A stretch of DNA of 51,714 bases, taken from assembly GCA_013151345.1 (NCBI GenBank), contig JAADIM010000008.1, forward strand, positions 1 to 51,714, in the 5' to 3' direction. This document shows, piece after piece, positions 1,007 through 45,854 of this stretch (position 1 is its first letter; each line of letters opens with the position of its first letter). Source of the DNA: Gammaproteobacteria bacterium. Its GTDB lineage: Bacteria; Pseudomonadota; Gammaproteobacteria; SG8-11. The notes under the pieces are model-generated. The model saw nothing but the letters and a program-made list of their open reading frames with translations. It did not search any database and was not told the DNA's origin. Both the position numbers and the translations under genes were made by a program.

Positions 1007-1039
1007 ACTGTAGTTACGTTAAGTAACTAAATTAAGTAA

Positions 1040-2029
1040 TTAAATTAAATACTCTTTTACTGCTCGCCCTATATCCTGCGCTTCCCCTTCTGTATCCCAT
1101 AACGCACTAAGCACCGCAATACCTTGTGCGCCGTGTTGAAACGCCTTTGACATTTGTTGTGGGTTCATGCCACCTAGCGCAAAAACAGGCATTGTCGTTT
1201 CATCAACTAACTCGAAAAATGTAGTCCAACCTAGCGTGTCCGCATCTGGGTGACTTTTCGTTTCGAGCACCGGAGAAAGTACAGCAAAATCAGCACCGAT
1301 TTTGATAGCGTGTTTTAGTTCTTCTGCATTATGGCAGGATACGGCAACCCATTTATCCATGCTAACGGGTCGACTATGTAACGCCATCAAACGATCACTG
1401 GAAAGATGCACACCGTCTACACCCAGCTCTTCAACGAGACCAGGATCCGCATTTATTAATAACTTTGCGCCGTATAATCGACAAAAACGTAAAGTTTCAA
1501 TCGCCAGTTGACGAAATTCGCTAATTTCCGAATTTTTTAATCGAAACTGAACAAGCTTAATACCAGCCTGTAGCAGCATCTCCAGTTTTGCAAAAAATTG
1601 TGACGTATCTGTTATTTGAGATTTCGTAATGAGATAAACAGAAGGTAGCTGCAATGCTTTTATAATCGACTGATTCGCATCAGGAAAGTTAAACGTTGAT
1701 AATTGATCTATGCTAACCCATTCTAATGGCTGTCCCTCTCGGCCATAGGCCTTCCCTGTAAAGCCAGTCACTCGCCACACATCCAGTAATACTGATTGAT
1801 CTGGATAATCGTGATGTATTCTGATTAACGGGTGCGCTTGTTGCGTAATAATATCAAGCTCTTCATTGAGCTCTCTTTTAAGTGCTGCATACACATTTTC
1901 ACCGGCTTCAATTTTGCCACCCGGAAACTCCCACAAACCACCTTGATGCACGTGATCGGGTCTTTGCGTCAGCAAAATCCGCCCCTGACGGTCATTTATT
2001 GCGGCAACGACAACATGCATACGGTGCAT
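1040..2029 (-). CDS. Nudix (MutT-like) hydrolase fused to a ThiE/TenI-like thiamine phosphate synthase domain
   Basis: Nudix box GGKIEAGENVYAALKRELNEEL followed by TIM-barrel region LVQFRLKN...GVHLSSDRL...FALGGM. Confidence 0.9.
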   Translation of the reverse strand: MHRMHVVVAAINDRQGRILLTQRPDHVHQGGLWEFPGGKIEAGENVYAALKRELNEELDIITQQAHPLIRIHHDYPDQSVLLDVWRVTGFTGKAYGREGQPLEWVSIDQLSTFNFPDANQSIIKALQLPSVYLITKSQITDTSQFFAKLEMLLQAGIKLVQFRLKNSEISEFRQLAIETLRFCRLYGAKLLINADPGLVEELGVDGVHLSSDRLMALHSRPVSMDKWVAVSCHNAEELKHAIKIGADFAVLSPVLETKSHPDADTLGWTTFFELVDETTMPVFALGGMNPQQMSKAFQHGAQGIAVLSALWDTEGEAQDIGRAVKEYLI

Positions 2030-2052
2030 AACATTTTTTTTAATTTCAGTTT

Positions 2053-3270
2053 TTAACTTCGATACTCGGCATTGATGCGCACATAGTCATATGATAAATC
2101 ACAAGTCCAGATACGCGCACTGTATAAACCCCGTCCCAGATTGACTCTTATCGTAATTTCATCCAGATCCATTACGTCCTGCCCTGATTTTTCGGTATAA
2201 CCCGGCGCCCTGCCCCCATTGCTGACGATACACACATCATTAAGAAATATACTCATTGCGCTAATATCTAAATTTTCTACATCGGCGCGACCAACTGCAG
2301 CCAGAATTCGACCCCAGTTCGGGTCTTTGGCAAAAAAAGCCGTTTTGACTAAAGGCGAATGCGCAATGGTGTAAGCAACTTCTTTGCATTCTTGCTCAGA
2401 TGTCCCTTCGAAAACATCGATTGTAATAAGTTTGGTCGCCCCCTCGCCATCACGAACGATAGCTTGTGCTAGCTGCTCACAAACCTCAGCAATAGCGTCA
2501 CAAACTTTACGGTAAACTTCATTTTCTTCTTTAATTAATGGCAAATTACTCTTGGCAGTCGCCATTAATATACAGGCATCGTTTGTCGACGTATCACCAT
2601 CCACGGTAATTCGATTAAATGATGCCGCAACAGACGTCTGCAAGCACTGATCCAGCAATTTTTTTGATATAGCCACATCGGTCGCAATAAAAGCAAGCAT
2701 AGTGGCCATGTCCGGTCGAATCATGCCTGAGCCCTTGGCGATACCCGTCACCGTAACGGCATGACCATCAATGGAAATTTTCTTTGAAGCTCCCTTGGCA
2801 AACGTGTCAGTCGTCAATATACCATTTGCTGCATCCACCCAACCGTTTTTATTCAGTGCCTGGTAAGTCCCTGGCAACCCTGATTTAACCGTTTCCAGTG
2901 GATAAATTTCGCCAATAACGCCTGTCGAAAAGGGTAAAACTTCATTTGCCTGGCATTCGTGCAACGCAGCTAATGCGCTACAGACGGCTCGCGCATCAGA
3001 CAACCCTTGCTTACCAGTACCGGCGTTCGCGTTACCGGTATTGATAACAAATAACCTTGGTGTCGTTTCCGACATATTTTGACGTGCAATGATGACCGGC
3101 GCAGCACAAAACTTATTCTGGGTAAAGACACCTGCACAGGTTGCTCCTTTATCCAAACTAATAACAACCAGATCCTTACGACCTGGTGATTTAATGCCTG
3201 CACTTGTTGCCCCTAAACAGACACCCTCCACAGGAAGCAAAACAGGAAGCACGGTTTGTCCAACGGCCAT
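2053..3270 (-). CDS. argJ: Bifunctional glutamate N-acetyltransferase/amino-acid acetyltransferase ArgJ
   Basis: ArgJ motifs incl. autoprocessing site KGSGMIRPDMATMLAF and ending RINAEYRS. Confidence 0.95.
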   Translation of the reverse strand: MAVGQTVLPVLLPVEGVCLGATSAGIKSPGRKDLVVISLDKGATCAGVFTQNKFCAAPVIIARQNMSETTPRLFVINTGNANAGTGKQGLSDARAVCSALAALHECQANEVLPFSTGVIGEIYPLETVKSGLPGTYQALNKNGWVDAANGILTTDTFAKGASKKISIDGHAVTVTGIAKGSGMIRPDMATMLAFIATDVAISKKLLDQCLQTSVAASFNRITVDGDTSTNDACILMATAKSNLPLIKEENEVYRKVCDAIAEVCEQLAQAIVRDGEGATKLITIDVFEGTSEQECKEVAYTIAHSPLVKTAFFAKDPNWGRILAAVGRADVENLDISAMSIFLNDVCIVSNGGRAPGYTEKSGQDVMDLDEITIRVNLGRGLYSARIWTCDLSYDYVRINAEYRS

Positions 3271-3296
3271 AATAAATCCTAAGGTTTGTTTGTAGT

Positions 3297-3310
3297 GTGA
3301 GACGTCTCAC
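3297..3310. repeat. Perfect 14-bp palindrome GTGAGACGTCTCAC upstream of argJ
   Basis: Direct reading; centre between 3303 and 3304. Confidence 0.8.
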
Positions 3311-3319
3311 TAAAGGTAT

Positions 3320-3397
3320 TTTCATCGCAAAAGCGCGAAGAACACAAAGGTTTATTGCAACTAACTAATATTTACTTTGCGCCCTTTGCGGTGAAGT
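3320..3397. repeat. Imperfect inverted repeat in secA-argJ spacer
   Basis: TTTCATCGCAAAAGCGCGAAG (3320-3340) versus CTTTGCGCCCTTTGCGGTGAAG (about 3375-3397). Confidence 0.6.
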
Positions 3398-3412
3398 TTT
3401 TCTAGCTTAGCG

Positions 3413-6166
3413 CTATTGAATTTTACCGTGGCACTGTTTGAACTTCTTACCTGATCCACAAGGACATGGATCATTACGTCCAACTTTCTTTCCGTCACGT
3501 ACAAAAGGAGTGTGTTGTTCTCCGGCCTGCACTGCATTTTCACCACCTTCACCACTATCAGACAACGCCATAGCAGATGCATCAGCATGTTGAAACTGCA
3601 ACGCTGCCCCCTGGCGTCGTTGCGCTTCAACGGCTTCGACATCTTCCTCGGCACGTACCTGTACCTTGGAAACAACGCTGACTACTTCTGTTTTAATGCG
3701 TTCCAGCATTTGCATAAAAGATTCAAACGCTTCACGTTTATATTCTTGTTTTGGATTTTTCTGTGCATATCCGCGTAGATGAATCCCTTGTCGCAAATGA
3801 TCCATTGCGGCTAAATGATCTTTCCATAGCGAATCCACTACCTGCAACATGACGGCTTTTTCAAAATGGCGAACCACACCTTTTCCTGCCAAATCCTCTT
3901 TTTCAACGTAACTTTTAGCCAACTCCTCGTGAATTCGAGTATAGAGTGTTTCCTCATGCAGATGATCATCACTATCCAGCCAGGCTTGTATTTCCATTTT
4001 CTGACCAAGTTCCCGTTCAAGCGCTTCCGTTAACCCAGGCACGTCCCACTGTTCTTCCATGCTTTGAGTCGGAATATGAGCAGCTATAACACTGTTCACT
4101 ACATCTTCGCGAATCGTTTTGATTGTTTCAGATATATCATCAGTGGCCATGAGCTCATTGCGTTGCTCGTATATTACTTTACGCTGATCATTGGCGACAT
4201 CATCGTATTCCAATAACTGTTTACGGATGTCGAAGTTACGTCCTTCTACTTTTCGTTGCGCATTTTCGATTGCTTTGGAAACCCATGGGTGCTCAATAGC
4301 TTCCCCTTCTTCCATGCCTAATTTTTGCATCATCGTTGAAACGCGATCAGAAGCAAATATTCGCATCAAGTTATCTTCCAGGGACAAATAAAACCGACTG
4401 GATCCAGGGTCGCCTTGACGACCGGAACGGCCACGTAACTGATTATCAATACGGCGCGATTCGTGGCGTTCAGTACCAATCACATGTAACCCGCCCGCTT
4501 CGATCACCTGTTCGTGACGCTTTTTCCAATCAGCACGCACCTGTTCAATTGTTTTATCGTCTGGCTGCTTTTTCTGCGCAGTAAGCGCATTAATTTCGAC
4601 TTCCAGATTACCGCCTAATACGATATCTGTACCGCGACCTGCCATATTAGTTGCAATGGTGACTGATCCCGGTCGGCCGGCATTGGTAATAATTTCAGCT
4701 TCCTTTTCATGAAATTTTGCATTCAATACCTGGTGATCAATTTTTGAGTCATTGAGTAGCGATGACAGATGCTCGGATGTTTCTATTGACGCGGTACCGA
4801 CAAGCACCGGCTGGCCGCGTTTTCGACAATCCACAATGTCTTCTGACAATGCTTGATATTTTTCCTTGGGAGTAAGAAAAACAAGATCACTATTATCTAC
4901 ACGACCGATGGGTTTATTAGTTGGAATGACAACAACTTCCAGCTTGTAAATTTGCTGAAACTCAAACGCTTCCGTGTCAGCCGTACCCGTCATGCCCGCC
5001 AGTTTATTATAAAGCCGGAAATAATTTTGAAATGTTATTGACGCGAGGGTTTGATTTTCATGCTGAATCTCAACGCCTTCTTTTGCCTCTACAGCTTGAT
5101 GTAAACCATCCGACCAACGCCGGCCAGGCATGGTTCGCCCGGTGAACTCATCGACAATCACAATCTGATTATCTTTTACAATATAATCAACGTTTTTCTG
5201 GAACAGCGAATAAGCGCGTAATGCAGCGTACACATGATGCACCAGGCTGATATTACTGGCGCTATAAAGGCTTTCCCCTTCACCAAGTGTGCCGTCCTCG
5301 GACAGCAATTCTTCAGCATGTTGGTGCCCTTCTTCGGTTAGCAATACTTGTCGCTGCTTTTCGTCAACACTGTAATCACCTGGCCCGTCTTCTTCTTCCT
5401 GCTTTACTAACTTGGGAGCCAGTTTATTAATTTTGTGATAGAGCGCAGAGCTGTCTTCTGCCTGACCGGAAATTATGAGTGGTGTACGCGCTTCATCTAT
5501 TAAGATGGAATCGACTTCATCGACAATCGCAAAGTTCAGATTGCGCTGCACTTTTTCTTCAATACTGAACGCCATGTTGTCGCGCAAATAGTCAAAACCG
5601 TACTCGTTATTTGTACCATAGACGATATCTGAGGCATACGCTTGACGTTTTGCTTCTGGGTTAAGCCCATGAATAACAACACCTACCGTCAGTCCCAGGT
5701 ATTCATAAATTTTTCCCATCCATGCGGCGTCACGCTGGGCAAGGTAATCATTGACTGTCACAATATGTACCCCGTCACCCGACAACGCATTTAGATAAGC
5801 AGGTAACGTCGCCACCAAGGTTTTACCTTCACCTGTGCCCATTTCTGCAATTTTGCCGCTATGTAGTACCATTCCACCCATTAACTGGACATCAAAGTGA
5901 CGCATACCCAGAACGCGTTTTGCAGCTTCACGGACGGTAGCAAACGCTTCCGGCAGCAATTTGTCTAATGATTCACCACTTGCGGCTCGTTTCTTATATT
6001 CTTCTGTCTTTGTACGCAGTTCATCCTCAGATAAAGCTGAAAATTGAGATTCAAGCGCGTTTATCTGTGCGACATCTCTGTGCATCTGCTTGATCAGTCG
6101 TTCGTTACGACTACCAAAGATCTTTTTGAATATATTTCCTACCATAGTGTCTCTATTTCCTGTCAA
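3413..6166 (-). CDS. secA: Preprotein translocase ATPase SecA
   Basis: Full SecA sequence with [36 protein letters not shown] and C-terminal [14 protein letters not shown] zinc motif; start could be [10 protein letters not shown] at about 6145. Confidence 0.97.
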
Positions 6167-6418
6167 ATATCGTGCTAACTATCGTGATCAATGCTTAAGT
6201 GCTTGATTACGTAACTTGATTATCTCAATAAGGACAAAAACCGTTAATTTCAATAAGAAAATGGGAGGGATTATAAAGTAAGGGGATGAGAATGGTAATG
6301 AATTTTTTTATGTATTAGTATTAATGGCTGTAAGGTTGGGGCTTACCAGTACACGGAGTCGTACCTCCCTCCGTACACCCGTTTCGTCATCACCCCCAAC
6401 TATGGCTAATACGTGACC

Positions 6419-7342
6419 TTAGCGGGTGGCTTGAATATATTTGGCTGGATTGACGGTGCGACCATTAAACAACACTTCAAAATGCACGTGAGGACCGGTA
6501 GAACGCCCTGTTGACCCCATTAGAGAAATTTTTTGCCCCTTTTTAACGGTGTCCCCAACTTTAACAATAATCTTTTTATTGTGGCCATAACGTGTGACAT
6601 ATCCATTTCCATGGTTAATTTCTACGAGATTCCCATAACCATAGCGTCGACTGGCCCAGGTGATAACACCCGCTGCAACGGCAATCACATCACTGCCATC
6701 TTTGCCAGCAAAATCCATACCCTTATGGTGTTCTCGTCGCCCGGTAAACGGGTCTGTTCGTAAACCAAAATAAGAGGAGGTCCAGCCCTTTCTGATCGGC
6801 CGGCCGGCTGGAAACACTTCTGCTTGCAGATTTCGATTCATCATCATTGTTTCAAGCACTGAAAGTTGTTGGCCACGATCTTCTATTTGCTTGGATAATA
6901 AAGCGATATTTTGCATAAAATCAGGGACGTCTACTGGCGATACCTCGCTGCTAGCTGGACCACCGACTGCAGGTACGCTGTCAAAATTAAACTCGCCTTT
7001 ATCCAGTTTCGCCATTTTTGTAAGCCGCTGACCCAACGCATCCAAGCGAATAACACGCGCTTGAAGCGAGCCGAGGCGTGACGCCAGCGCGCTCATATTA
7101 TCTTCAACATCGCGCTTCGTATTGTTAATTTGCAAATCCTGTTGTTCTAGTTGCTCTTGTAATACAGCGTATAAAACATCAGGCTGAAATTTCACGCTCT
7201 GTTTACCTAACCAATAACCTGTATACGCCAGCCCACCAGGCAGGAGGACCATCGTGACTAACGCAAAAGCGAATAATCGACGTCTATTCAGATTGATATA
7301 ACCTGAACCACCGCTGTGCTTTCTAATAAGAATTATATTCAT
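6419..7342 (-). CDS. M23 family metallopeptidase (LytM/NlpD-like) with N-terminal TM helix
   Basis: HKGMDFAGKDGSDVIAVAAGVITWA...YGHNKK...STGRSTGPHVHFEV. Confidence 0.93.
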   Translation of the reverse strand: MNIILIRKHSGGSGYINLNRRRLFAFALVTMVLLPGGLAYTGYWLGKQSVKFQPDVLYAVLQEQLEQQDLQINNTKRDVEDNMSALASRLGSLQARVIRLDALGQRLTKMAKLDKGEFNFDSVPAVGGPASSEVSPVDVPDFMQNIALLSKQIEDRGQQLSVLETMMMNRNLQAEVFPAGRPIRKGWTSSYFGLRTDPFTGRREHHKGMDFAGKDGSDVIAVAAGVITWASRRYGYGNLVEINHGNGYVTRYGHNKKIIVKVGDTVKKGQKISLMGSTGRSTGPHVHFEVLFNGRTVNPAKYIQATR

Positions 7343-8455: not shown

Positions 8456-8458
8456 GCT

Positions 8459-8497
8459 TAACAAAAAGTCGTAACAAAGAGTCCCAACAAAAAGCTC
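8459..8497. repeat. 13-bp tandem repeat, 3 copies (TAACAAAAAGTCG)
   Basis: 8459-8471, 8472-8484, 8485-8497. Confidence 0.8.
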
Positions 8498-9446: not shown

Positions 9447-10023
9447 AGTTATTGGTTAATTCCTGTAACCTTCGTACTTCACAAAGGTACTTAACAAAAG
9501 ATGCTTAAAATTGGAAAAATGCCACTAAATTGTTACCTGGATACTGCCTGGACAATTATCTGATAATAAATCACCTGATTAAAAACTGTTACCTAGCAAT
9601 TAGTAGCTATCTATATAATAACTCGCGACTTTTTGAGCTGTAGTTCTTTGCCAGCTATTGTCACCAACGTTTAGTCGTCGACCTCAGTCACCCGCTCTTT
9701 GGAAGCACTTTTGCTTGCACATTATTTTCATCGCCATCATTAAAAAAAGACAGACAATGAGCAAACACTGTGTATTTAGACTCAAAAATTAATGTGTGTC
9801 AAATAAATCACAAGTGTATCAAAAATCTCACAGGTTCGCAAAATTCTAACACAGCCTTTCGCGATTGCCTAGAAAACTATCGGACTTACATCACATATCT
9901 AAAGATAAATTTAGAAACAAATTCTTCTAAGTTTATATCGTCAATTATCCGCTTTTTGGCCTTAAAATAGGCTTAAAAAAACATTACTGTATAATTAATC
10001 ACCGTGCTCGTCCGCAAACGTGT

Positions 10024-11224: not shown

Positions 11225-11268
11225 TTAAACAACAAATGTTAAGCAACAATCGTTAAGCAAAAACAAAA
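11225..11268. repeat. 14-16 bp tandem repeat, 3 copies (TTAAGCAACAATCG) between ftsA and ftsZ
   Basis: 11225-11238, 11239-11252, 11253-11268. Confidence 0.65.
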
Positions 11269-12511: not shown

Positions 12512-13287
12512 TAATTATTCCTCCTCAAGGAGTCGCCATTTTGTAACATAACGTTCTGCAACAAAGGGTTCTGCAACGTAGAACTCTCCATCATAGACAA
12601 GTGCGTGGATTTCCACTTAACCGCGAACCCGTTTGTATAGCGAAGATCAACTTGTGCGATATCTTTCATATTTTTTGAAAATACCCCACTTACAACGTCA
12701 ACAAATCGATCCAATGCTTGATATACATTGATACGCCCAACCACCAGCTCAACATCATTATTCAATACAATTCGCCATGCTTGACGATCATCCATTTCCA
12801 ATACTGAAATTTTTTGGTCAATATTACTTAACTTCCGGGTCATTTCTTTGTATTGGCTCAACATAACGCTGTGCGAATCTTCAGGACCACGTAAATGAGG
12901 CAAATCACCAGGCATACTCTTTAATTCCGGATAAAATATTGCTCCCTGCGCATTCAGTAATCCGTTGTTATTCCAAATCGCAACTGCTTCCTGTTCTTTT
13001 ACAGTGATTCGTAATGTATCCGGCCATACACGTCTAACTGAGGCAGATTGAATCCACGGCATTTCTTTTACCGTACTCTCTATTTTGGCGACATCTACGT
13101 TAAAGAAACCGCCCGAAATATTATTTGTAATTATATTTTGCAAATGCTCTTGACTAACATGCTCAAATAAGCCGTCAACCCTAACTTTTTTAAACGGCAC
13201 GGAATCAGACTCGAACAGAACCGTCACACCCCAAAACACCAAACCAGTCAGGGCACCAACAATCAATAATTTGCTTGGCAATTTCAA
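12511..13287 (-). CDS. ftsQ: Cell division protein FtsQ
   Basis: POTRA region VRVDGLFEHVSQEHLQNIITNN; WIQSASVRRVWPDTLRITVKEQEAVAIWN; position ddl-ftsQ-ftsA. Confidence 0.95.
   Translation of the reverse strand: MKLPSKLLIVGALTGLVFWGVTVLFESDSVPFKKVRVDGLFEHVSQEHLQNIITNNISGGFFNVDVAKIESTVKEMPWIQSASVRRVWPDTLRITVKEQEAVAIWNNNGLLNAQGAIFYPELKSMPGDLPHLRGPEDSHSVMLSQYKEMTRKLSNIDQKISVLEMDDRQAWRIVLNNDVELVVGRINVYQALDRFVDVVSGVFSKNMKDIAQVDLRYTNGFAVKWKSTHLSMMESSTLQNPLLQNVMLQNGDSLRRNN
12538..12582. repeat. 15-bp tandem repeat in ftsQ 3' end encoding LQNPL LQNVM LQN
   Basis: 12538-12552, 12553-12567, 12568-12582. Confidence 0.85.
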
Positions 13288-15133: not shown

Positions 15134-16710
15134 GACTTATCTTCCTTACGACGGCTCAGTTTCGGAACCTTGTTTTTTAATGGAATGTTTTTTAATGCAT
15201 CGTTTTGAGAAGACTTGTTTTGCAAAGACGTGTTTTGTAATGAGTTGCGCAGTGTAGAATCCCCCAACAATTCCGTCGATAATACTGGGGCAATCGAACC
15301 AATATCACCTGCACCTAACACCAACACTATGTCGCCGTCTTTCATCAAGCCCTTAACCGTGTGAAGTATGTCATCAATATTTTCAACAAATACCGGATCA
15401 ATCTGCCCACGGTTACGTATCGCACGACACAAAGTACGCCCATCGGCGCCGGCAATCACATCTTCACCCGCTGAAAACACATCTAACAAAACAAGCACAT
15501 CCACTTCGGACAATACAATAGTAAAATCTTCAAATAAATCCTGTGTTCTGCTGTAACGATGCGGCTGGAAAACAGCAAGCAATCGACGATTGGGCCATCC
15601 ACTACGAACGGCTTCGATCACCGCAGAAAGTTCGCTTGGATGATGTGCATAGTCGTCAATTAGCAGAACTTCACCTTGTTCCGTCTTTATTTCTCCATAA
15701 TTTTGAATTCGCCGTCCGATCCCTTCAAATTGTTTTAGTGCCCTTAGTATTGAATCATCATCCACACCTAGTTCATGTGCCACCGCAATCGCAGCCAACG
15801 CATTTAATACATTATGTTTTCCTGGCAAATTTAACGTAATTTCTAATGGTATTTCATTATCACGGCGCATAACACTAAATGTTGTGATAGCTCCTTTCTG
15901 TTTAATATTTTTAGCCACAATATCAGCATCACCTTCTATGCCGTAAGTCACTGTGGGTCTGGATATTTCCGGTAACATTTCAAGCACTACCGGATCATCA
16001 ATGCACAAAATAGCCAATCCATAAAATGGCAGGTGATGCAAAAATTCAACAAACGTATTGCGTAGGCGAGAAAAATCACCTCCATAGGTGCGCATGTGAT
16101 CTGCATCAATATTAGTTACAATCGCAAGCATCGGTTGCAAATAAAGAAATGACGCATCACTTTCATCCGCTTCGGCAACCAGATAAGGGCTTTCGCCCAA
16201 CTTTGCATTGCCTCCGGTACTATTGAGCCGCCCACCAATAACATAAGTTGGATCCAAGCCACCTTCTGCAAGCAAGCTCGCCACTAAGCTTGTTGTTGTT
16301 GTCTTCCCATGCGTTCCAGCAACCGCAATACCATGACGAAAACGCATAATCTCGGCTAACATTTCTGCACGCGGCACAACGGGTATTCTATTTTTATGCG
16401 CCGCCACCACTTCAGAATTATCATCAGCTATTGCAGAAGATGTAACAATGACGTCGACATTGCTTATATTTACCGGATCATGACCTATTATTATTTTTGC
16501 GCCTAAACCAGTCAATCGATGTGTAATGTTATTTTCGCGCAAATCAGTGCCTGATATTTGATAACCCATATTTAATAAAACTTCAGCTATTCCTCCCATA
16601 CCTACACCGCCAACACCGATAAAATGAATTCGATTAATGCGTCGCATGGCCTGCCAATTCAAACCATTTTTGTTTAGTGTATTATCAATATCAGGCATGA
16701 CATCCATCAC
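15130..16710 (-). CDS. murC: UDP-N-acetylmuramate--L-alanine ligase MurC
   Basis: [39 protein letters not shown]; extra C-terminal tail after the usual end. Confidence 0.97.
15169..15258. repeat. 15-bp tandem repeat (5-6 degenerate copies) in murC 3' end
   Basis: CTTGTTTTTTAATGG / AATGTTTTTTAATGC / ATCGTTTTGAGAAGA / CTTGTTTTGCAAAGA / CGTGTTTTGTAATGA. Confidence 0.85.
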
Positions 16711-17926: not shown

Positions 17927-17991
17927 TTTTATAGCTATGTTTTATAACTATTTTTTATAACTATTTTTTATAACTATTTTTTATAGTTACG
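17927..17991. repeat. 13-bp tandem repeat TTTTATAACTATT, 5 copies, across the ftsW 3' end
   Basis: 17927-17939, 17940-17952, 17953-17965, 17966-17978, 17979-17991; middle three identical. Confidence 0.9.
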
Positions 17992-19242
17992 TCGTTTATT
18001 TCTTTTATTAGAACGAAATGCATTTTTGCCAGACGATTCTCCTTCATTATGCACTTCATAAAAAATGCGCATTACAATCGCCAAAGATATACACACCATA
18101 ACCATGCTACTACCACCATAACTCATCAATGGTAATGTCAATCCTTTGGTTGGTAATACACCCATATTCACACCTAAGTTAATAATTACCTGTAAGCTAA
18201 GCCACAGACCAATACCGTATGCAAGATATGCTGCAAAGCAGTTTCCAATTTTCTCTGCTTGGGAAGCAACATATAAAATCCTCCATACAACGATAGAAAA
18301 CAAACCGATAACTATAAACGATCCCGCCAAACCTAATTCTTCTGCAATCACAGCAAAAACAAAATCAGTATGAGCTTCCGGTAAATAAAACAATTTTTGG
18401 ACACTGGCACCCAAGCCTACGCCAAACCATTCACCCCGACCAAACGCAATCAATGCTTGGGTGAGCTGAAATCCACTATTAAAAGGGTCATCCCAGGGAT
18501 TTAAAAATGTAGTCAAACGTTGCATACGATACGGTGCGGAAAATGCCATCCCGACCAGCGCTGCGATAACCACGGCAACAAATACCGTAAAATGTAACAG
18601 CCTTACTCCGGCAAGAAACAACATACCAAAAACGGTTGCAGATAAAACAACTACCGCGCCAAAATCAGGCTCAGCGAACAGCAAGAGACTTGTAATTGTC
18701 AGCAATACAATCGGTATTAGGAATCCTTTTAGGGTTTCGCGTATTTCTTCTCCTCGTCGCACTAAATAGCCAGAAAGATAAATAATAAAAAATAATTTTG
18801 TGAACTCAGAGGGCTGTAAATTTACAAAACCTAAACTGATCCAACGTGCGCTACCATTAACTTGTAAGCCTATTCCGGGAACAACAACCAAAATAAGTAA
18901 CGTGATCGCGCCTATTAACAAGAACGGCCCCGATTTTTGCCAAAATGACAAGCGCACCTGCAATACGCAAAAGGCTAACAACAGACCAACACCAACGTAG
19001 GCAATTTGCCGTGTAAGAAAATATAAAGGCTGGTGCATTACTTTATCAGAAATACCAATTGATGCAGAACCGGTCATTACAACCCCAATACACAACAGAC
19101 ATACGACGGATCCGACAAACCAGTAATCTAATATTAACGATTGCGTTTTATTATTTTGGGAAGAGCTTCTTTGAGAAGTGCTTCGCGACCCAGGTTGCTT
19201 ACGCTGCCAAAAACCATCAAATATCTTTGCGTAATTAATCAT
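17974..19242 (-). CDS. ftsW: Lipid II polymerase/flippase-family protein FtsW (SEDS)
   Basis: SEDS signature GVNMGVLPTKGLTLPLMSYGGSSM; cluster position. Confidence 0.97.
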   Translation of the reverse strand: MINYAKIFDGFWQRKQPGSRSTSQRSSSQNNKTQSLILDYWFVGSVVCLLCIGVVMTGSASIGISDKVMHQPLYFLTRQIAYVGVGLLLAFCVLQVRLSFWQKSGPFLLIGAITLLILVVVPGIGLQVNGSARWISLGFVNLQPSEFTKLFFIIYLSGYLVRRGEEIRETLKGFLIPIVLLTITSLLLFAEPDFGAVVVLSATVFGMLFLAGVRLLHFTVFVAVVIAALVGMAFSAPYRMQRLTTFLNPWDDPFNSGFQLTQALIAFGRGEWFGVGLGASVQKLFYLPEAHTDFVFAVIAEELGLAGSFIVIGLFSIVVWRILYVASQAEKIGNCFAAYLAYGIGLWLSLQVIINLGVNMGVLPTKGLTLPLMSYGGSSMVMVCISLAIVMRIFYEVHNEGESSGKNAFRSNKRNKRRNYKK

Positions 19243-20671
19243 ATAACCTCGTAACGATATTCATAAAATCAAGTCCGCGTTCTTCAAACCCGCCATACAT
19301 ATCAAAACTCGCGCACGCCGGTGCAAGCAAAACACTGTCCCCTTCATCAGCTAACTCATTTGCACTTTTTACCGCTTCTTCCATATTTTCAACAAAAACG
19401 ACCTTGACATTAGAACCTAATGCATGCGCTATAAGTTCCGCATCCTGCCCCAATAACACAACTGCTTTTGCTTTTTGTTCAACTATTTTTTTTAATGGAG
19501 AAAAATCTGCACCCTTACCTTCACCTCCCGCGATTAAAACCACCTTTCCGGTTAACGCACCAACTGCGGCAACAGTTGCTCCTACATTTGTCGCTTTTGA
19601 ATCATTATACCAATCCACATGATTATAATTACCTAGCCACTGCATACGGTGTGGCAGCCCCCTAAAATCAGACAGGCATGGAATAGTTTTTTCGAGTGGC
19701 AAACCAATCGCTTCGGCCAACGCCAAAGCCGCCAGCGAATTAGCTAAATTATGCTTTCCTTTAATTTTCATATCAGTTTCACTTATTAGATTTTCTTCGC
19801 CCCGAGCCAACCAATTACAACCGGCTACTTTTCGCAAACCATAAACCGCGTCACCCGGCTCATTCAAAGTAAAGCAAATTATCTTTCTATTTTTATCAGA
19901 TTTTTTATTTTCAGAAGACCCTTCATTAGAGAAGTTATTAGAGAAGTCATTAGAAAAGGAAGAAACAAGTGGGTCATCTAAATTAACCACAACAGCACCT
20001 TCACCCTGATAAATTTTCTTTTTGACATCTAAATAATGACTAATATCACGATAACGATCCATATGATCCGCACTTACATTCAACACAACAGATGCAATCG
20101 GATGCAGAGAATACGTGGTTTCGAGCTGAAAGCTGGATAACTCCAAAATGTAAAAATCAGGTTTTACATTGTCTGGTGATGCGTCCGACAATGTGTCAGA
20201 TAACAATTCAAGAACGGGCGTACCCAGATTACCACCCAACTTTGCAGTCAATCCTGCACGCTGAACCATCTCACCCAACAACGTTGTGACGGTACTTTTA
20301 CCATTTGATCCTGTAATCGCAATAACAGGTGCGTTAACATATTGGGAAAATAATTCAATATCACTAATAACATTCGCACCCTGCTTTATAGCGTCAGATA
20401 TAATCGGTTCATCCAACGACACACCGGGAGATATGATTATTTGTTCTGCCACACCAAAGGCATCAGGGTCGAATCCGCCTGTAAATACTGCGATGTCAGG
20501 ATATTCATTGCTCAGTGTGTCAAGTTCAGGTGGTTTTACACGACTATCCGTTACTGCAACGGAGTAACCTTTTTTCGCTAAGTAGCGCGCGCAAGACAAC
20601 CCTGTCTTACCTAAACCAACGATCAATACGCGATTTTCAGCCATATCTCTTTTCAAACTTGTGTTTAACAT
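19235..20671 (-). CDS. murD: UDP-N-acetylmuramoyl-L-alanine--D-glutamate ligase MurD
   Basis: VLIVGLGKTGLSCARYL; ITGSNGKSTVTTLLGEM; GGFEERGLDF. Confidence 0.97.
   Translation of the reverse strand: MLNTSLKRDMAENRVLIVGLGKTGLSCARYLAKKGYSVAVTDSRVKPPELDTLSNEYPDIAVFTGGFDPDAFGVAEQIIISPGVSLDEPIISDAIKQGANVISDIELFSQYVNAPVIAITGSNGKSTVTTLLGEMVQRAGLTAKLGGNLGTPVLELLSDTLSDASPDNVKPDFYILELSSFQLETTYSLHPIASVVLNVSADHMDRYRDISHYLDVKKKIYQGEGAVVVNLDDPLVSSFSNDFSNNFSNEGSSENKKSDKNRKIICFTLNEPGDAVYGLRKVAGCNWLARGEENLISETDMKIKGKHNLANSLAALALAEAIGLPLEKTIPCLSDFRGLPHRMQWLGNYNHVDWYNDSKATNVGATVAAVGALTGKVVLIAGGEGKGADFSPLKKIVEQKAKAVVLLGQDAELIAHALGSNVKVVFVENMEEAVKSANELADEGDSVLLAPACASFDMYGGFEERGLDFMNIVTRLYD
19924..19959. repeat. 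12-bp in-frame tandem repeat, 3 copies, inside murD (SNDF SNNF SN)
   Basis: CATTAGAGAAGT / TATTAGAGAAGT / CATTAGAAAAGG. Confidence 0.85.
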
Positions 20672-23183: not shown

Positions 23184-23193
23184 AGTTACGCTA

Positions 23194-23243
23194 TCTCTAA
23201 CAAAATCACTAACAAAAAATCACCGGAAAAGTCACCAAAACAA
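23194..23243. repeat. Degenerate 12-14 bp tandem repeat in murF-murE spacer
   Basis: TCTCTAACAAAA / TCACTAACAAAAAA / TCACCGGAAAAG / TCACCAAAACAA. Confidence 0.55.
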
Positions 23244-28480: not shown

Positions 28481-28584
28481 ACAAATTTGGCACCCAAAAT
28501 GGCCAAAGAAAATACAAATCATGGAGTTAGAAGGCAAAGCTAGAGGAATCTATCAAGAACTGAAGAATACAGAAATAAGAAAAG

Positions 28585-28943
28585 GAGTTGGCCTATAAGC
28601 CGGGTTCTGTCGAGAACAGTCATTCATCTGGGATACACGTCACCGCGCACCTCATGCGACCTACCCGGGAACAGTGTGGGCCACACTCGGCAGCTTACGC
28701 TGCCAGTTCCCCTATTTGGTCTTGCTCCAGGTGGGGTTTGCCATGCCACTGATGTTACCACCAGCGCGGTGCGCTCTTACCGCACCATTTCACCCTTACC
28801 AGCACGACTAGCGTGTTTCGGCGGTATATTTTCTGCGGCACTTTCCGTAGGCTCGCGCCTCCCAGAAGTTATCTGGCACCTTGCCCTATAGAGCCCGGAC
28901 TTTCCTCTACATCTCAAAGATATAGCGACTGTTCAGCCAACTC
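28585..28943 (-). ncRNA. rnpB: RNase P RNA (class A)
   Basis: Minus strand GAGTTGGCTGAACAGTCGC...GAGGAAAGTCCGGGCTC...GGTAAGGGTGAAATGGTGCGGTAAGAGCGCACCGCG...CAGAACCCGGCTTATAGGCCAACTC; P1 GAGTTGGC/GCCAACTC. Ends approximate. Confidence 0.95.
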
Positions 28944-29029
28944 GGAGCAGAGTTTCAAGGATTTCAGTCTATTTTTCAAGATGCACAGCTCTAATTAGTG
29001 ACTAAAAGCGTAAATTTAATAATGTAAAT

Positions 29030-29045: not shown

Positions 29046-29128
29046 CTTTTATATTGCTTTCCGGCACAAAATCACTAGAATCAGGGCTGATTTAGTTATA
29101 TAAGCAAATATATAAGCAGGCCCCTGAT

Positions 29129-32664: not shown

Positions 32665-32717
32665 GTGGGGATGAAGGAGGAGGATGCAGTTGAACCCTAT
32701 CCTTCTACCCAGTTTTT

Positions 32718-32802
32718 TAGTACATTATTTTAGTACATAGTTTTAGTACATAGTTTTAGTACATAGTTTTAGTACATAGTTTTAGTACATAGTTTTAGTC
32801 AG
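32718..32802. repeat. 13-bp tandem repeat TAGTACATAGTTT, 6 copies plus degenerate 7th
   Basis: TAGTACA cores at 32718, 32731, 32744, 32757, 32770, 32783; TAGTCAG at 32796. Confidence 0.95.
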
Positions 32803-32953
32803 TAGTCGTGATAATATTTTTTTCAGTACTTTTTTCTAAAATTTTTTTAAAACTTTTTTTAAAAGAAGTGGCCCGGTTATACGCTCTCGTATTCTACTCA
32901 TAACCCAACCAAACAGTTACCGAATTGCACCCTACATAAAAGCAGCGAACCGC

Positions 32954-34123
32954 ATGGGCCTCGAGGTACTGATTGCGTCGCGCGGCGAACATTCGCTGAT
33001 TTCCGAGGTTCACCGCGGCTTGCACATTGATCTGGAAAATCTCAACAGTTCACTCACCCACATTCTCAAAGAAGAAAAAAAAACACCCTTTGCAGGCGTG
33101 TTAGGCAGCGATGACAGTACCGTAGAGCTTGCTGCTAAAGTCGCAGACGCACTTGGACTCCCGCAAAACCCACAAACCGCCGCACGCTTGACCCAACGCA
33201 AAGACCTGGCACGCGCCCACCTGACACAAGCTGGCTGCCCCGTACCAAAATACCGCTTGATCAATATTGACATTCCGCTCAATAAGCAAATAGCGGGCTT
33301 TCCTTGGCCCTGTGTGATCAAACCCCTAAATCTATCTGCAAGCCGGGGGGTTATTCGCGCAAATAACACCGAAGAATTTGTTGCTGCATGTAACCGTATT
33401 AAACCCATTATTGCAGAATCAAATGATGAGTTTGCGAAACACCATATACTTGCAGAAGAATATATCGATGGTATAGAAGTCGCTTTCGAAGGTTATCTTC
33501 ACGACAGCGAACTCACCACGTTGGTGATATTTGACAAACCGGATCCACTAGAAGGACCTTACTTCGAAGAAACAATCTATGTCACGCCATCACAATTGGA
33601 CAATACTACTCAAATAAGAATTAAACAAAACATTGCGCAAGCGTGCAAGGCATATGGCCTGACCACAGGCCCTGTGCACGCCGAGTTACGAATCAATGAA
33701 CAAAATGCCTGGATCTTGGAAGTCGCTTGCCGCACGATTGGTGGAGATTGCGCACGTAGTCTTGATAACGGTAGCAATTTCAATCTGGAAGAACTCGCTA
33801 TATCACTGGCAATAGGTCGTCCAATAAAAACGCGACCACCTGAAGATGCTCGTGGTGTCATGATGATTCCGATCAAGCAAGGCGGTATATTGCGCCGCGT
33901 AGAGGGTATTTCCGCTGCTCTAAAAATCGCAAACATCAAGAAAATTGATATCATTATTCGGGAAGGAAACGAGCTAATCCCGCTTCCGGAAGGAAACCAA
34001 TATCCAGGTTATATTTTCGCTCGCGGCCAATCTCCAACAGATGTCATTCATGCACTCAGAGAAGCGCTTTCTAAGCTAGACTTTGTAGTTGCGCCGCTGT
34101 TTAAATTAAATAAGTTAAATTAA
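32954..34123 (+). CDS. ATP-grasp domain protein (carboxylate-amine ligase type); true start probably upstream
   Basis: PWPCVIKPLNLSASRGVIRANN...LAEEYIDGIEVAFEGYL...ILEVACRTIGGDCARSL; open frame extends upstream to about 32840. Confidence 0.85.
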   Translation: MGLEVLIASRGEHSLISEVHRGLHIDLENLNSSLTHILKEEKKTPFAGVLGSDDSTVELAAKVADALGLPQNPQTAARLTQRKDLARAHLTQAGCPVPKYRLINIDIPLNKQIAGFPWPCVIKPLNLSASRGVIRANNTEEFVAACNRIKPIIAESNDEFAKHHILAEEYIDGIEVAFEGYLHDSELTTLVIFDKPDPLEGPYFEETIYVTPSQLDNTTQIRIKQNIAQACKAYGLTTGPVHAELRINEQNAWILEVACRTIGGDCARSLDNGSNFNLEELAISLAIGRPIKTRPPEDARGVMMIPIKQGGILRRVEGISAALKIANIKKIDIIIREGNELIPLPEGNQYPGYIFARGQSPTDVIHALREALSKLDFVVAPLFKLNKLN

Positions 34124-34128
34124 ATAAG
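34101..34128. repeat. 14-bp tandem repeat TTAAATTAAATAAG, 2 copies at the ATP-grasp 3' end (KLNKLN*)
   Basis: 34101-34114 and 34115-34128 identical. Confidence 0.85.
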
Positions 34129-34448: not shown

Positions 34449-34508
34449 TCCTAATAAAAAAGTCCTAATAAAAAAGTCCTAATAAATAAAAGTCCTAATA
34501 AATAAAAG
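34449..34508. repeat. 14/16-bp tandem repeat TCCTAATAAAAAAG, 4 copies, upstream of yggX
   Basis: 34449-34462, 34463-34476 (14 bp); 34477-34492, 34493-34508 (16 bp). Confidence 0.9.
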
Positions 34509-37456: not shown

Positions 37457-37597
37457 ATAAACTTAAAAATGTGCTCCACAGAAAAGACCAAAATTATTGC
37501 CAGTTAATCAGCATCTTTCGATTTTAATACTGTTTCTATTTTAATACTGAGTATTACGGCAAAAATACAGTTTTCTATAGTTCCATTATAAACAGGG

Positions 37598-40302: not shown

Positions 40303-40306
40303 ATAA

Positions 40307-40322
40307 TGTGATGCAAATCACG
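40307..40322. promoter_or_regulatory. CRP/FNR-superfamily-like palindrome TGTGATGCAAATCACG
   Basis: TGTGA-N6-TCACG directly upstream of the glycosyltransferase gene. Confidence 0.4.
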
Positions 40323-40781
40323 ATCTACATTAGAAAATGTGTTATAGATACGCGAGACTTTTATGTAAGATCTTTCACATAAAGAGACTCCATAAATAAA
40401 TACAACTTATGACAATAAATTACACCTAATACAGCTCTAAAATACCATCTAAAAACATAAAAGTAGTATCTTAATCACCCAGTATAGTGGGATTTTGCCT
40501 AATAATAGTTATCAGTCATTTAGTAGACCGGTAATCCTGGGTGCAGAACGTAGCTCGCCAACAACTATGAAGCATTATCCCTGGAGGAAAAAAAACCTGG
40601 CTTTCGCTTGCTAGGCATTATAATGATAAACTGCGCACAGTTAATAAACGGGAAAGGACATGTTGTTAACTTCCGGGCATCATGGGCTTGCCCTGTAAAT
40701 AAAAAAATACCAGTTTTTAATCGCATACAAAATAAATATGACATATGACGCAGATGGCGTATTATTTATCGACATTGCCAT

Positions 40782-40805
40782 TTATAACCCCAGTTATAAC
40801 CCCAG
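40782..40805. repeat. 12-bp direct tandem duplication TTATAACCCCAG x2
   Basis: 40782-40793 and 40794-40805 identical. Confidence 0.8.
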
Positions 40806-41173
40806 TGCAGTATAAGTGTTCACGACATCAATCCCAACCCATTACCCTGTGCTCGTAGCCCATGCCGCAGCTGTTAAGTTAAGCTGGTTAAAAATTACAA
40901 AAAATACCTGGCGCGTAATTGAAAAAATTAATTAATTGTTATTATATATTATGAACTTTATACGAAATTTCGGGTCGCATCTTAGCGGCGTGAATGTGAG
41001 GCGTATCAGTTATAATTATATAAACATATCCATAAATTTATTGCTCTTACTCAGATTACGTTTATTCAAATTTTATTCAAAGAATAGGAGGCCAAAATTA
41101 ATCTTGCGTTCATCTAGATAATCATATGAAAATAGACGCCACTGAAGAATCTTTTAATTAATAACACCCTAAC

Positions 41174-41578
41174 ATGGAGACAGCTATGCACACATCAGTG
41201 AACAATCGAATATTCCAGCTTTTTTTAATAGTTTCAATTTGTGTTTTTACCACTCAATTATCTATTGCGGGTGACGGTGCTATTCAATCGATGGCCAACA
41301 TCATGATGAAGATAAATCATTATCCTAGTGACAGTGAAAAGAAAACGTTAGGTGATATTGTCAATGATAAATCCACATCGGAACATGATCGTGTTATGGC
41401 ACAATCAATAATCAATCTTCAACACAAGGCAAGTCCTGCTGACAAAGAAAAATTGAGCAAAATCATGAACGACAAGTCTGCACCAGCGGACGCACGCGAC
41501 CTGGCAGGCATTATTCACAATTTAAATCATACGCCTAGCGAAGGTGATAAAGCACGACTCGAAAAAATGATTCATTAA
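41174..41578 (+). CDS. Small exported protein with about 2.5 helical repeats of ~36 aa
   Basis: Signal peptide, then INHYPSDSEKKTLGDIVNDKSTSEHDR / LQHKASPADKEKLSKIMNDKSAPADAR / LNHTPSEGDKARLEKMIH. Confidence 0.75.
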   Translation: METAMHTSVNNRIFQLFLIVSICVFTTQLSIAGDGAIQSMANIMMKINHYPSDSEKKTLGDIVNDKSTSEHDRVMAQSIINLQHKASPADKEKLSKIMNDKSAPADARDLAGIIHNLNHTPSEGDKARLEKMIH

Positions 41579-41816
41579 ATAGCAGCGCTATTGCATGCTA
41601 TTCGACAGTTGACAGTTATAGTGAGGCTCTCTTTAATAGAGGGTCTCATTCGAAAATGTTGTTATTGAGGCATTATTTTATGGGTAGAGTTATGAGGATA
41701 GTATGCATGAGAGGTACAAGGAAGTAATTCGTTGACATTGATCATTTTAAAGCCATGTATTACATTACTGTGTTATTCACAAAAAAACAATGAGGTAACA
41801 TTGAGGAATTGCAATA

Positions 41817-44789
41817 CTATTTTTTGATTTTAAATTGTTGTTGTAACCAATTCGACAATTCGTCTGCTGGCAATGGTTTGCAAAACAAAAAACCTTGACT
41901 CGACTGACAATGCTTGGACCGCAGAAATTCCAATTGACCTTCGGTCTCAACACCCTCTGCAATTACATCCAGCTTTAAACTTTGGCCCATCACAATAATC
42001 GCGGTCGCTATCGCAGCGTCGTCTGAATCAATCGTCACATCTCGAATAAACGAACGATCAATCTTTAATGAATCAATTGGAAACCGGCGCAAATAGCTTA
42101 GGGACGAATAACCCGTTCCGAAATCATCAATAGCAAATCGGACACCCAATTCACTCAACGTATTTATTGCTTCAATTGTACTTGTAGTATTACGCATTAA
42201 TAAACTTTCAGTAATTTCCAGTTCAAGTAATCGAGGATCAATACCTGTATCGGTGATGATTTGTCTAATTTTGGAGACTAAATTGCTGTCATTAAACTGT
42301 CTACTTGACATGTTCACTGACATCCGTAACGAGTGTTTTTCAAACATATCACCCCATCGCACGGATTGTTTACACGCGTTGCGCAAAACCCATTCGCCGA
42401 CAGAAACTATCTGGCCTATTTCTTCGAGAAAGGGTATAAATTCTAATGGAGACACTAGTCCCAAATCAGGATGCTGCCAACGTATAAGCGCTTCAACACC
42501 AATTACATTTTTATTATTTACATCAATTTGCGGTTGGTAATGTAAAACAAATTCATCTAACTCAAGCGCACTCCGTAAACTGCTTTCTAACGTTAGACGC
42601 TCAAATGCTTTTGCGCTCATTTCAGTAGAATAAAATTGGTAATTATTTTTACCTAAGTCCTTTGCCCTATACATGGCAATATCGGCATGCTTCAATAACG
42701 TTTGCGAGTCCACCCCATCATTGGGACAATTACTCACTCCTATGCTTGCGGTAATATAGAATTCTCTTTCGTCAATAACAAATTTAGGCTCCAGGGCCTC
42801 AAGCATTTTTTTTGCCAAACTTGCAATATCTTTTTCTAAAGCTATATCATCCAGCAAAACTGCGAATTCATCACCGCCTAATCGTGCAACGGTATCACCG
42901 TCACGTATATCGCCTACTAAACGCTGAGCAATTAATTTTAGTAGCTTGTCGCCAGTATCATGACCCAATGAATCATTAATCGTTTTGAAACGATCCAAAT
43001 CAATAAACATTACGGCGATGAGTCGTTTATGATATCTGGCGCGGGCCAGCGCTAGCTTTAATCGCTCAAGAAACAAGGTTCGGTTGGGTAGTTCAGTTAA
43101 CGGATCATGATGCGCCATGTGATGCAACTTTTCCTGGGCATGCATCCTATCTGTTATATCTTTACCTGTCGAAACAAAATGCGTAATGTTCCCTTCCGCA
43201 TCTTTGAGCGGTGTTATCGTTTTTTGTTCATAATAAAAAGTACTATCTTTTCTCCTGTTAATTAATACATCGCTAAATACATTCCCACTGGAAATTGTCT
43301 GCCATAAATTCGTATAAAACTCCTCATTTTGTTTGCCTGATTTGACGATATTTGGTTTTTCACCTAAAACTTCTTCTTTTGAATAACCCGTCGCCAGCTC
43401 GAATGATTGATTTACATATTCAATAATACCTGAACAATCTGTAATCATAACTACATCCGCCGATTGCTCCAAGGCCATTGAGAGCTTGCGCATTTGCTCT
43501 TCTGTTTCTTTAATATTGGTAATGTCTCTAGTCGTCCCCTCAATGCCTATTTTTTTCCCGGCAAGATCGTAATAATAATGGGCGTTCGTAGACACCCAGA
43601 TTGTCGTCCCATCTTTGCGTTTCAACTCCGCAATATAATTTTCAATTTTTCCATTATTTTCTTTTATCAGCCGTGTGAGCTTGTCCCTGCCATCGGGTTC
43701 AACAAATAAATTTGCCAAGTCTATTCCCAATATTTCATTTGGCAGATAACCAAATAACTGCTCTACTGAACTCGATACACGAATTACTTTACCCAATTTG
43801 TCTGCTCGGAAAAATGTATCCTGCATTTCATGCAAAATCGCGCTTAGCTCTTCTTCAGATGATTCTATTTTTTTCTTGGATTGATGAGACTCAAGCTCTA
43901 AAGCAATGCGTTGACAGAAAGTAGCGAGAATTGACGCAGTCCATGGCATTAACTTCATAGGCTTAACATCCAATACTGACACTAAACCAATTGTTTCACC
44001 GAAAGAATTTATCAATGGCGAACCGAAGTAACTTTCTGCTGACATATCTGCAAGCATTTTGTCATCAGGATAAAGCTTGACGACATCGCGTGAAATCAGT
44101 TTTTTACTGCGATCCAAAATGTCTGCGCACGGTGTACCAGCCAAGTCATATTCAAAATTTTCCAGAATCTCGTTGCCCGCCCACACGGCCCGCGTTTCCA
44201 CCCTTGTTTTATTAGCATCGAGCAATAATCCAACAAACGCAAATCGCGCACTATATGCTTTCGAAAGCATTTGTACACAGGATTGCAAAAATTCATCAAG
44301 ATCAGTTACATTGCTCTCTGCCAGTAAATTTAACGCCTCTACTGCATTTTTACGGTCGGAGATATCTGTAAAACTGACACGCACCAGCTTTTGGTTTTTG
44401 ATAGGTAGCCGAACTATACGAACTTCACAGGGAATGTGTTTTCCTGACACATCGAGGTAATTCCATTCATAAACATAGAATGCACCCTCTAATACTTGAT
44501 TAATTTGCGATTGAATAATTTCTTCAGACGACTGACCATTTTGGAGAGACTCATGATAAAATTTTTCCAATCCAACTGTTAAAAGTTTCTCTTTATTTAT
44601 CCCAAACGCTTTTACAGCATGCAGATTTGCTTCAATCAACTTACCTTTTTCAATATTATAAACAACAATAGCAATAGGCGCATGTTCCGTGAGCGCCCTT
44701 AATTCTTCCGCACTTTCCAGAAATGTATTCTCTGACATTTTTTCGAGTTTTTTTTCTAACATAAGAAGCTGTTTGTAACAAACTGACAC
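41817..44789 (-). CDS. PAS-GAF-PAS-PAS-GGDEF-EAL protein (diguanylate cyclase/phosphodiesterase)
   Basis: RDGDTVARLGGDEFAVLL (RxxD I-site and GGDEF intact); VEALIRW, DDFGTGYSSLSYL, KIDRSF, IAEGVET (EAL residues intact). Confidence 0.95.
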   Translation of the reverse strand: MSVCYKQLLMLEKKLEKMSENTFLESAEELRALTEHAPIAIVVYNIEKGKLIEANLHAVKAFGINKEKLLTVGLEKFYHESLQNGQSSEEIIQSQINQVLEGAFYVYEWNYLDVSGKHIPCEVRIVRLPIKNQKLVRVSFTDISDRKNAVEALNLLAESNVTDLDEFLQSCVQMLSKAYSARFAFVGLLLDANKTRVETRAVWAGNEILENFEYDLAGTPCADILDRSKKLISRDVVKLYPDDKMLADMSAESYFGSPLINSFGETIGLVSVLDVKPMKLMPWTASILATFCQRIALELESHQSKKKIESSEEELSAILHEMQDTFFRADKLGKVIRVSSSVEQLFGYLPNEILGIDLANLFVEPDGRDKLTRLIKENNGKIENYIAELKRKDGTTIWVSTNAHYYYDLAGKKIGIEGTTRDITNIKETEEQMRKLSMALEQSADVVMITDCSGIIEYVNQSFELATGYSKEEVLGEKPNIVKSGKQNEEFYTNLWQTISSGNVFSDVLINRRKDSTFYYEQKTITPLKDAEGNITHFVSTGKDITDRMHAQEKLHHMAHHDPLTELPNRTLFLERLKLALARARYHKRLIAVMFIDLDRFKTINDSLGHDTGDKLLKLIAQRLVGDIRDGDTVARLGGDEFAVLLDDIALEKDIASLAKKMLEALEPKFVIDEREFYITASIGVSNCPNDGVDSQTLLKHADIAMYRAKDLGKNNYQFYSTEMSAKAFERLTLESSLRSALELDEFVLHYQPQIDVNNKNVIGVEALIRWQHPDLGLVSPLEFIPFLEEIGQIVSVGEWVLRNACKQSVRWGDMFEKHSLRMSVNMSSRQFNDSNLVSKIRQIITDTGIDPRLLELEITESLLMRNTTSTIEAINTLSELGVRFAIDDFGTGYSSLSYLRRFPIDSLKIDRSFIRDVTIDSDDAAIATAIIVMGQSLKLDVIAEGVETEGQLEFLRSKHCQSSQGFLFCKPLPADELSNWLQQQFKIKK

Positions 44790-45335
44790 GCAACGCCGAC
44801 GGCTGCGCTACTGTGAATTATGTATACCGGGACCCAACGATCATGGAATAAATAGCACAATAAATAACTCTAATAGTAGTTACAAATGATCGACTAGCAA
44901 GCCATGATTGGGTTGAAACAAGATTTAAATAACGTTCTTATAATAATTTATTATATATAGTGAGTGTATCGCTAAATAACAGGTCAAATCCAAGATCAAA
45001 ATTGCAGCAGCGTCTTTGGCTTAACACCAAATTTGAGGCCTAACAGATTAATTACATGAGCCCACAACCCAACATATCGATCATAAAATCTACTGGTGTT
45101 GATACACACAGGCCGCAGCTTCACCAACCACACTCATTGCGCTAAGACTAATAACTGATGAGAATTTGGTTTTTTAATAACCTTATCTAAGCTACGTCAA
45201 CTCCACGATAGCCTTGTTTTTCCGGTAGCTATGTAAGCCTTTGCAATTTAAGTATGCGGCCTGACTTTATTGACTTATCACGTAGGATCCACCTAATATT
45301 GAAGTTGGTGACGAAATGGATTTTTTTCTGGAAAT

Positions 45336-45800
45336 ATGAACTACCCGACAACAAATTTTTTTGTCCTTTTTATAATTACTTCACTCGTCCTGCTGCCTAT
45401 GCGTTCAGGCTTGGCGTGTCAGAACGCCTCTGCGCACAAAAATAACAATGAACAAAATAGTGATGACTGCGCCCATCATCAAAACACCTCACGTATCGGC
45501 ACTTTCTCTTCGGACACTTATCCAGGTTCCTCATATTCAGATTTTTCTCTTTCAAAAGATGTCAAACTAAACACACAACAGATCATAATGGCTGATATTA
45601 ATAAATCAGACCATATAAATCACGATACGGTTTGTGATAGCGAATGCTGCAGCAGTTGCGCTCATAGCTTTTCTGCGTTGTCTACTTTGATTAATTTAAC
45701 CGGCAAATCTATGCCACCACCCTATTTCTACTCTACTTCGTTCTTTAAGGAACCAGACCTAACACTACATCATCCTCCTCCAATTTTTTTCTTCCTTTAG
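45336..45800 (+). CDS. Small Cys/His-rich exported protein, possible metal-related (CopL/DUF2946-like)
   Basis: Signal-like N-terminus; CDSECCSSCAHSFSA; C-terminal HHPPPIFFFL. Confidence 0.5.
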   Translation: MNYPTTNFFVLFIITSLVLLPMRSGLACQNASAHKNNNEQNSDDCAHHQNTSRIGTFSSDTYPGSSYSDFSLSKDVKLNTQQIIMADINKSDHINHDTVCDSECCSSCAHSFSALSTLINLTGKSMPPPYFYSTSFFKEPDLTLHHPPPIFFFL

Positions 45801-45806
45801 TTACTA

Positions 45807-45854
45807 ATAAGTAGTTCTATAAGTAAATTTATAAGTAGTTTTATAGATAGTCCT
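45807..45854. repeat. 12-bp tandem repeat ATAAGTAGTTCT, 4 copies
   Basis: 45807-45818, 45819-45830, 45831-45842, 45843-45854. Confidence 0.8.

Follow-up and report, generated by a model that had tools for sequence, protein, structure and literature searches.

Short tandem arrays are familiar in bacteria as the VNTRs or minisatellites used for strain typing, which lie in spacers and in-frame within genes; slippage between short direct repeats is the origin usually assumed for them. The arrays that we describe here resemble VNTRs both in their short spacer arrays and in their in-frame genic arrays, but their density is several-fold higher than in other gammaproteobacteria and most of them are doublets or triplets. 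In mammalian cells, small tandem duplications form at staggered breaks through fill-in and Ku80-dependent joining (PMC8355091). Those duplications are likewise short, tandem, and largely microhomology-free, and are thought to come from the fill-in of offset strand ends; the process requires Ku80 and CST-Pol alpha-primase (PMC8355091), whereas here we deal with a bacterium in which Ku was not found. The genome of a marine member of the Beggiatoaceae carries a single heptamer, TAACTGA, in 169 repeat sets (PMC4679880), and is similar in that short direct repeats are plentiful in the spacers near the genes of an uncultured gammaproteobacterium. In that case, however, one fixed 7-bp unit is repeated and is presumed to be regulatory (PMC4679880), while here the units, 8-16 bp long and some of them intragenic, number in the hundreds and are unrelated. 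In the literature that we searched, mostly papers outside subscription, we found no bacterial precedent for microhomology-free duplications of 8-16 bp, which is weak evidence.

Tandem arrays in a dcw window

The window that we analyzed, 51,714 nucleotides in length, is contig C61 of a MAG (2.18 Mb, 134 contigs, 68.5% complete) from an uncultured gammaproteobacterium; genome-wide figures refer to 982 kb of the same MAG, read by stretches. The dcw cell-division and cell-wall cluster is located in the window, which also holds a bacterial class A RNase P RNA (28580-28944, - strand) and a thiamine monophosphate synthase with a fused NUDIX domain (1040-2029, - strand). In a three-protein tree (FtsZ, FtsA, and LpxC), the sister is a genome of the same genus, G001 (support 1.0), followed by G002 and G003 (0.99), in a neighborhood of uncultured Chromatiales-like Gammaproteobacteria. 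Our sample of G001 covers 247 kb, 20 kb of it masked, and entered only the whole-sequence counts and the comparison of loci.

A sequence-only reading of the window had listed 14 tandem arrays, 12 of which are recovered by TRF with the same or similar coordinates and periods (Table 1). The other two have no TRF row at a score of at least 30: 12538-12582 is a degenerate 15-bp array, recognizable in the FtsQ protein, and the two 12-mers at 29098-29121 are too divergent to count. Five arrays had been overlooked, at 9474-9498 (13 bp), 19155-19184 (15 bp), 32828-32864 (12 bp), 37516-37549 (17 bp), and 47914-47946 (15 bp). Randomized sequence does not reach such numbers; the window has 12 arrays with a period of 12-16 bp and a TRF score of at least 50, whereas 60 dinucleotide-preserving block shuffles average 0.07 and 40 order-4 Markov simulations 0.075, with a maximum of 1 in either set.

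Table 1 Tandem arrays and one conserved direct repeat in the window.
Feature	Position	Location or product	Evidence
13-bp array TTAAGTAACTAAA x2.3	1019..1048	end of NUDIX-ThiE gene, overlaps stop	TRF 53
13-bp array TAACAAAAAGTCC x2.8	8459..8494	spacer downstream of lpxC	TRF 51; aligned G001 passage without array
13-bp doublet GTACTTAACAAAG	9474..9498	immediately upstream of lpxC	TRF 43; G001 without
20-bp direct repeat TGTGTCAAATAAATCACAAG / TGTATCAAAAATCTCACAGG	9785-9830; L237:6763-6802	between ftsZ and lpxC	
14-bp array TTAAGCAACAAACG x2.9	11225..11264	ftsA-ftsZ spacer	TRF 52
degenerate 15-bp array in ftsQ	12538..12582	codes TLQNPLLQNVMLQN in FtsQ tail	protein alignment; TRF <30
15-bp arrays in murC	15172..15237	code ~40-aa C-terminal extension	TRF 49 and 51; alignment
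13-bp array TTTTATAACTATT x4.5	17927..17985	ftsW end and ftsW-murG spacer	TRF 104
15-bp doublet in ftsW	19155..19184	N-terminal part; translation RSTSQRSSSQN	TRF 46
12-bp array TCATTAGAGAAG x3 in murD	19923..19958	part of 18-aa insert SNDFSNNFSNE...	TRF 58
12-bp array ATCACTAACAAA x2.1	23193..23217	murE-murF spacer	TRF 43
13-bp array TTTTAGTACATAG x6.5	32715..32799	~50 bp past iron-sulfur biosynthesis gene	TRF 156
12-bp array ACTTTTTTTAAA x3.1	32828..32864	same spacer as 32715..32799 array	TRF 58
perfect 14-bp doublet TTAAATTAAATAAG	34101..34128	spans stop of ATP-grasp gene	TRF 56; slack 0, zero microhomology
14/16-bp array TCCTAATAAAAAAG x3.7	34449..34502	spacer	TRF 90
17-bp doublet TTTCGATTTTAATACTG	37516..37549	spacer	TRF 61; G001 without
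12-bp array CCAGTTATAACC x2.4	40778..40806	spacer	TRF 51; G001 without
12-bp array ATAAGTAGTTTT x3.2-3.8	45807..45851	spacer	TRF 57

We aligned MurC, MurD, and FtsQ with about 16 homologues. The C-terminal extension of MurC, built from 15-bp repeats, is private to this genome, and so is the 18-aa insert of MurD, which is built on 12-bp repeats; both are missing in G001 and in the other gammaproteobacteria aligned. G001 FtsQ likewise lacks the tail repeat. Wherever the spacers can be aligned, the window arrays are missing in G001; in the ftsW-murG spacer, G001 has a different, unrelated 14-bp doublet, CCTTGCGCCTTGTT, in place of the 13-bp array. Judged by these alignments, the arrays are lineage-specific. 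An exception is the 20-bp direct repeat upstream of lpxC, which is conserved in G001; unlike the arrays, it is probably a different, functional thing, and possibly a candidate regulatory site for lpxC.

Array density and the structure of exact doublets

At a score of at least 40, TRF returns 323 arrays in the 982 kb (329 per Mb), most commonly with periods of 12-15 bp. Because the TRF score rises with the period when copy number is equal, we also tallied exact self-matches at every lag, a count that is free of this bias. Intergenic DNA shows a peak at lags of 11-16 (at lag 12, 42 matches were observed where 1.7 would be expected) and harmonics at lags of 24, 26, and 28, and coding DNA shows peaks at 12 and 15. 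This exact-run spectrum rules out that the 12-16 period peak is a TRF threshold artifact.

For comparison, we used 80 control loci, gammaproteobacterial DNA around ftsZ (dcw), and their AT-rich subset. Counting arrays with a TRF score of at least 50 and a period of 10-20 bp, the density is 161 per Mb in this genome, 69 in G001, 22 in the 80 loci, and 36 in the AT-rich subset; arrays are indeed denser here than in ordinary AT-rich gammaproteobacteria. Noncoding or mixed DNA has 654 arrays per Mb here, compared to 78 in the 80 loci and 168 in the AT-rich set, fold differences that are approximate, since little noncoding DNA was sampled in the controls (24 kb in the AT-rich set) and genes were called by a simple procedure of our own. 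Exact doublets of 10-18 bp follow the same order, with 98.8 per Mb here, 39.7 in G001, 18.0 in AT-rich gammaproteobacteria, and 9.9 in the 80 loci; a 100-kb sample of E. coli K-12 has 0. These comparisons show that this genome is hot and that its sister species is intermediate.

Intergenic exact doublets exceed chance from 8 bp upward, reach their maximum at 12-13 bp, and drop steeply past 16 bp. A relation of the period to one helical turn, suggested in the sequence-only reading, finds no support in sizes that span 8-16 bp. In 65 exact doublets of 10-18 bp we determined the slack, the match length beyond one unit, which shows whether a short repeat bracketed the segment beforehand. For slack of 0 to 8 bp the counts are 27, 7, 6, 9, 4, 5, 2, 2, and 3. 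A blunt process expects fractions of 0.52, 0.28, 0.12, and so on, while a requirement for 3 bp of homology expects zero below three. A two-part fit assigns 70% of the doublets (57-81%) to the microhomology-free, blunt class; as in the mammalian duplications, most have little or no end homology. Point mutation may shorten the apparent homology, yet it would not be expected to create a peak at exactly zero. As a kind of mutation this is known, and it is unusual in degree and flavor; what looks new is the excess of exact doublets at 8-16 bp, with few larger and most apparently microhomology-free, and the interest lies mainly in this blunt signature.

Could ordinary slippage between short prior direct repeats make these duplications, in a genome that is merely AT-rich and has loose spacers? 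Repeats may have been present beforehand at the ends of 20-40% of the exact doublets, those with at least 3 bp of homology; AT-rich gammaproteobacteria are likewise somewhat enriched in arrays, and slippage readily expands a doublet once it exists. But end homology is shorter than 3 bp in 40 of the 65 doublets and absent in 27, where a 3-bp requirement expects none; slippage should favor short periods, yet periods below 8 are few; and doublets are five times fewer in AT-rich gammaproteobacteria. The 8-16 bp excess and the predominance of blunt doublets thus argue against most duplications being born by simple slippage, and we consider this explanation unlikely.

Several candidate defects and pathways were checked against the gene content. 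Neither Ku (PF02735) nor an ATP-dependent ligase was found in this MAG, which is 68.5% complete, or in four relatives of its family, which agree with it and include a genome that is 99% complete; Ku-dependent end joining of the mammalian type, or by bacterial Ku/LigD, was rejected accordingly. Loss of mismatch repair was set aside since MutS is intact, as was a FEN1-like defect through loss of the Pol I 5'-nuclease, since this domain is present and Pol I is full-length (917 aa).

Placement, reading frame, and unit sequence

The preference for spacers and gene ends that had been read from the window is borne out by the coverage profile, which is highest beside gene ends. Arrays cover 6-8% of the first 75 bp past stops and about 6% of the region 25-75 bp ahead of starts, whereas coverage farther out than 150 bp is about 1-3.5%; within genes, the final 150 bp have at most about 1.5% and mostly below 0.5%. 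This clustering is the pattern that insertion tolerance would give. By spacer type, the density is 931 per Mb in tandem, 593 in convergent, and 435 in divergent spacers. The tandem excess mostly follows short spacer length, and a strand- or operon-specific cause was rejected.

The contrast between coding periods divisible by 3 and spacer periods that are not also extends from the window to the genome: at a score of at least 50, the period is divisible by 3 in 45 of 51 coding arrays, whereas the mod-3 classes of 100 intergenic arrays are even (34/33/33). Most coding arrays translate into short repeated peptides, and many of these are polar (e.g., KQGQ, SNRE, and AEGSSH).

Placement of this kind might also be expected if the arrays were functional elements, regulator sites for transcription, translation, or termination that are kept by selection, as has been proposed for the Beggiatoaceae heptamer. 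Arrays are concentrated within 100 bp of gene ends, and an EM motif search gave a log-likelihood of 52.7 for the arrays, above shuffled units (38-49) and AT-matched intergenic oligos (32-38), so that a weak AGTT/TAAAAC-type preference exists; its orientation with respect to transcription is only slight. Against a functional role, the units are mostly unrelated to one another, orthologous spacers do not conserve them, and the same class of array also occurs in-frame inside genes. We regard this explanation as improbable.

That the arrays are seeded by a family of short repeats, mobile or dispersed, is more improbable still. A few pairs of arrays do have a common unit, such as those at window 17927 and L093:2869, but in an all-against-all BLAST of 265 arrays at the lowest threshold we found 21 pairs vs 11 in shuffled-unit controls, about twofold, rather than homologous copies at many loci. 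Neither this comparison nor the motif search revealed a shared unit of the TAACTGA type, and with a weak excess only, a single family was rejected. The description of the units as sequence-unrelated therefore stands for the most part, qualified by this twofold excess of similarity and by the weak motif preference. Finally, although the MAG is fragmented (134 contigs, 68.5% complete), the chance that the arrays are an artifact of metagenome assembly or sequencing is negligible, as an artifact would not preserve frame in 45 of 51 coding arrays, yield mutated multi-copy arrays, leave the extended MurC and MurD frames intact, or account for the same array class in the separately assembled G001.

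The strongest pair in the genome, window 17927-17985 and L093:2869-2932, lies at unrelated loci and has the 13-bp unit TTTTATARCTATK, with 87% identity over 61 bp. Beside secA, the window also carries an imperfect inverted repeat about 90 bp long (3313-3404; arms CGCAAAGG.../...CCTTTGCG). It is dispersed, with copies on the G001 contigs L237, L240, L243, L255, and others and elsewhere in the MAG, and looks MITE- or REP-like.

A model for the origin of the arrays

We think that the arrays are probably the footprint of an elevated, Ku-independent duplication of gap or flap type, followed by slippage expansion, decay, and frame selection, with no repeat family involved. In the first step, a single event would tandemly duplicate 8-16 bp, mostly with no prior short repeat at the ends. 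Given that the doublets are mostly blunt and bounded in size, that Ku and the ligase were not found, and that MutS and Pol I are intact, we propose that a gap or strand-displaced flap of 8-16 nt would be filled and the displaced copy ligated rather than removed, with no joining of the Ku type. This length would fit the sizes that are generally given for excision-repair patches and for primer remnants. Filling and ligation as the enzymatic step is offered tentatively; that the duplications come from a blunt, bounded process and then pass through selection is well supported, and far firmer than the enzymology. In the second step, ordinary replication slippage would grow the doublet to 3-8 copies, which point mutations would then wear down. 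Selection would leave arrays mainly in spacers near gene ends, and within genes only in-frame, in tails and loops. The model takes its size range, its lack of microhomology, its lineage specificity, and its frame filter directly from the observations.

In its central proposal, a general local-duplication process with reading-frame selection in place of a single repeat family, the sequence-only reading holds genome-wide, as seen in the frame counts, the unrelated units, the sister-species sites, and the private inserts. We would refine it in two respects: the duplications are bounded in size at 8-16 bp, and most recent doublets appear independent of microhomology.

The bounded, microhomology-poor size spectrum and the clear frame filter provide a countable record of a duplication process in a bacterial genome, one that is seen reshaping conserved cell-wall enzymes, and the lineage offers a place to seek the responsible repair step. 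A bolder and rather doubtful reading is that the lineage runs a specific Ku-independent pathway, a counterpart of eukaryotic fill-in, that makes blunt 8-16 bp duplications at a high rate and feeds in-frame sequence into MurC, MurD, and FtsQ. If true, a dedicated pathway would measurably supply new in-frame sequence to these essential proteins.

Similar arrays are present in a few other AT-rich uncultured gammaproteobacteria. Two such MAGs, L169 and L192, each have several arrays of 12-15 bp in the vicinity of ftsZ, and to judge from these, other lineages may also have become hot.
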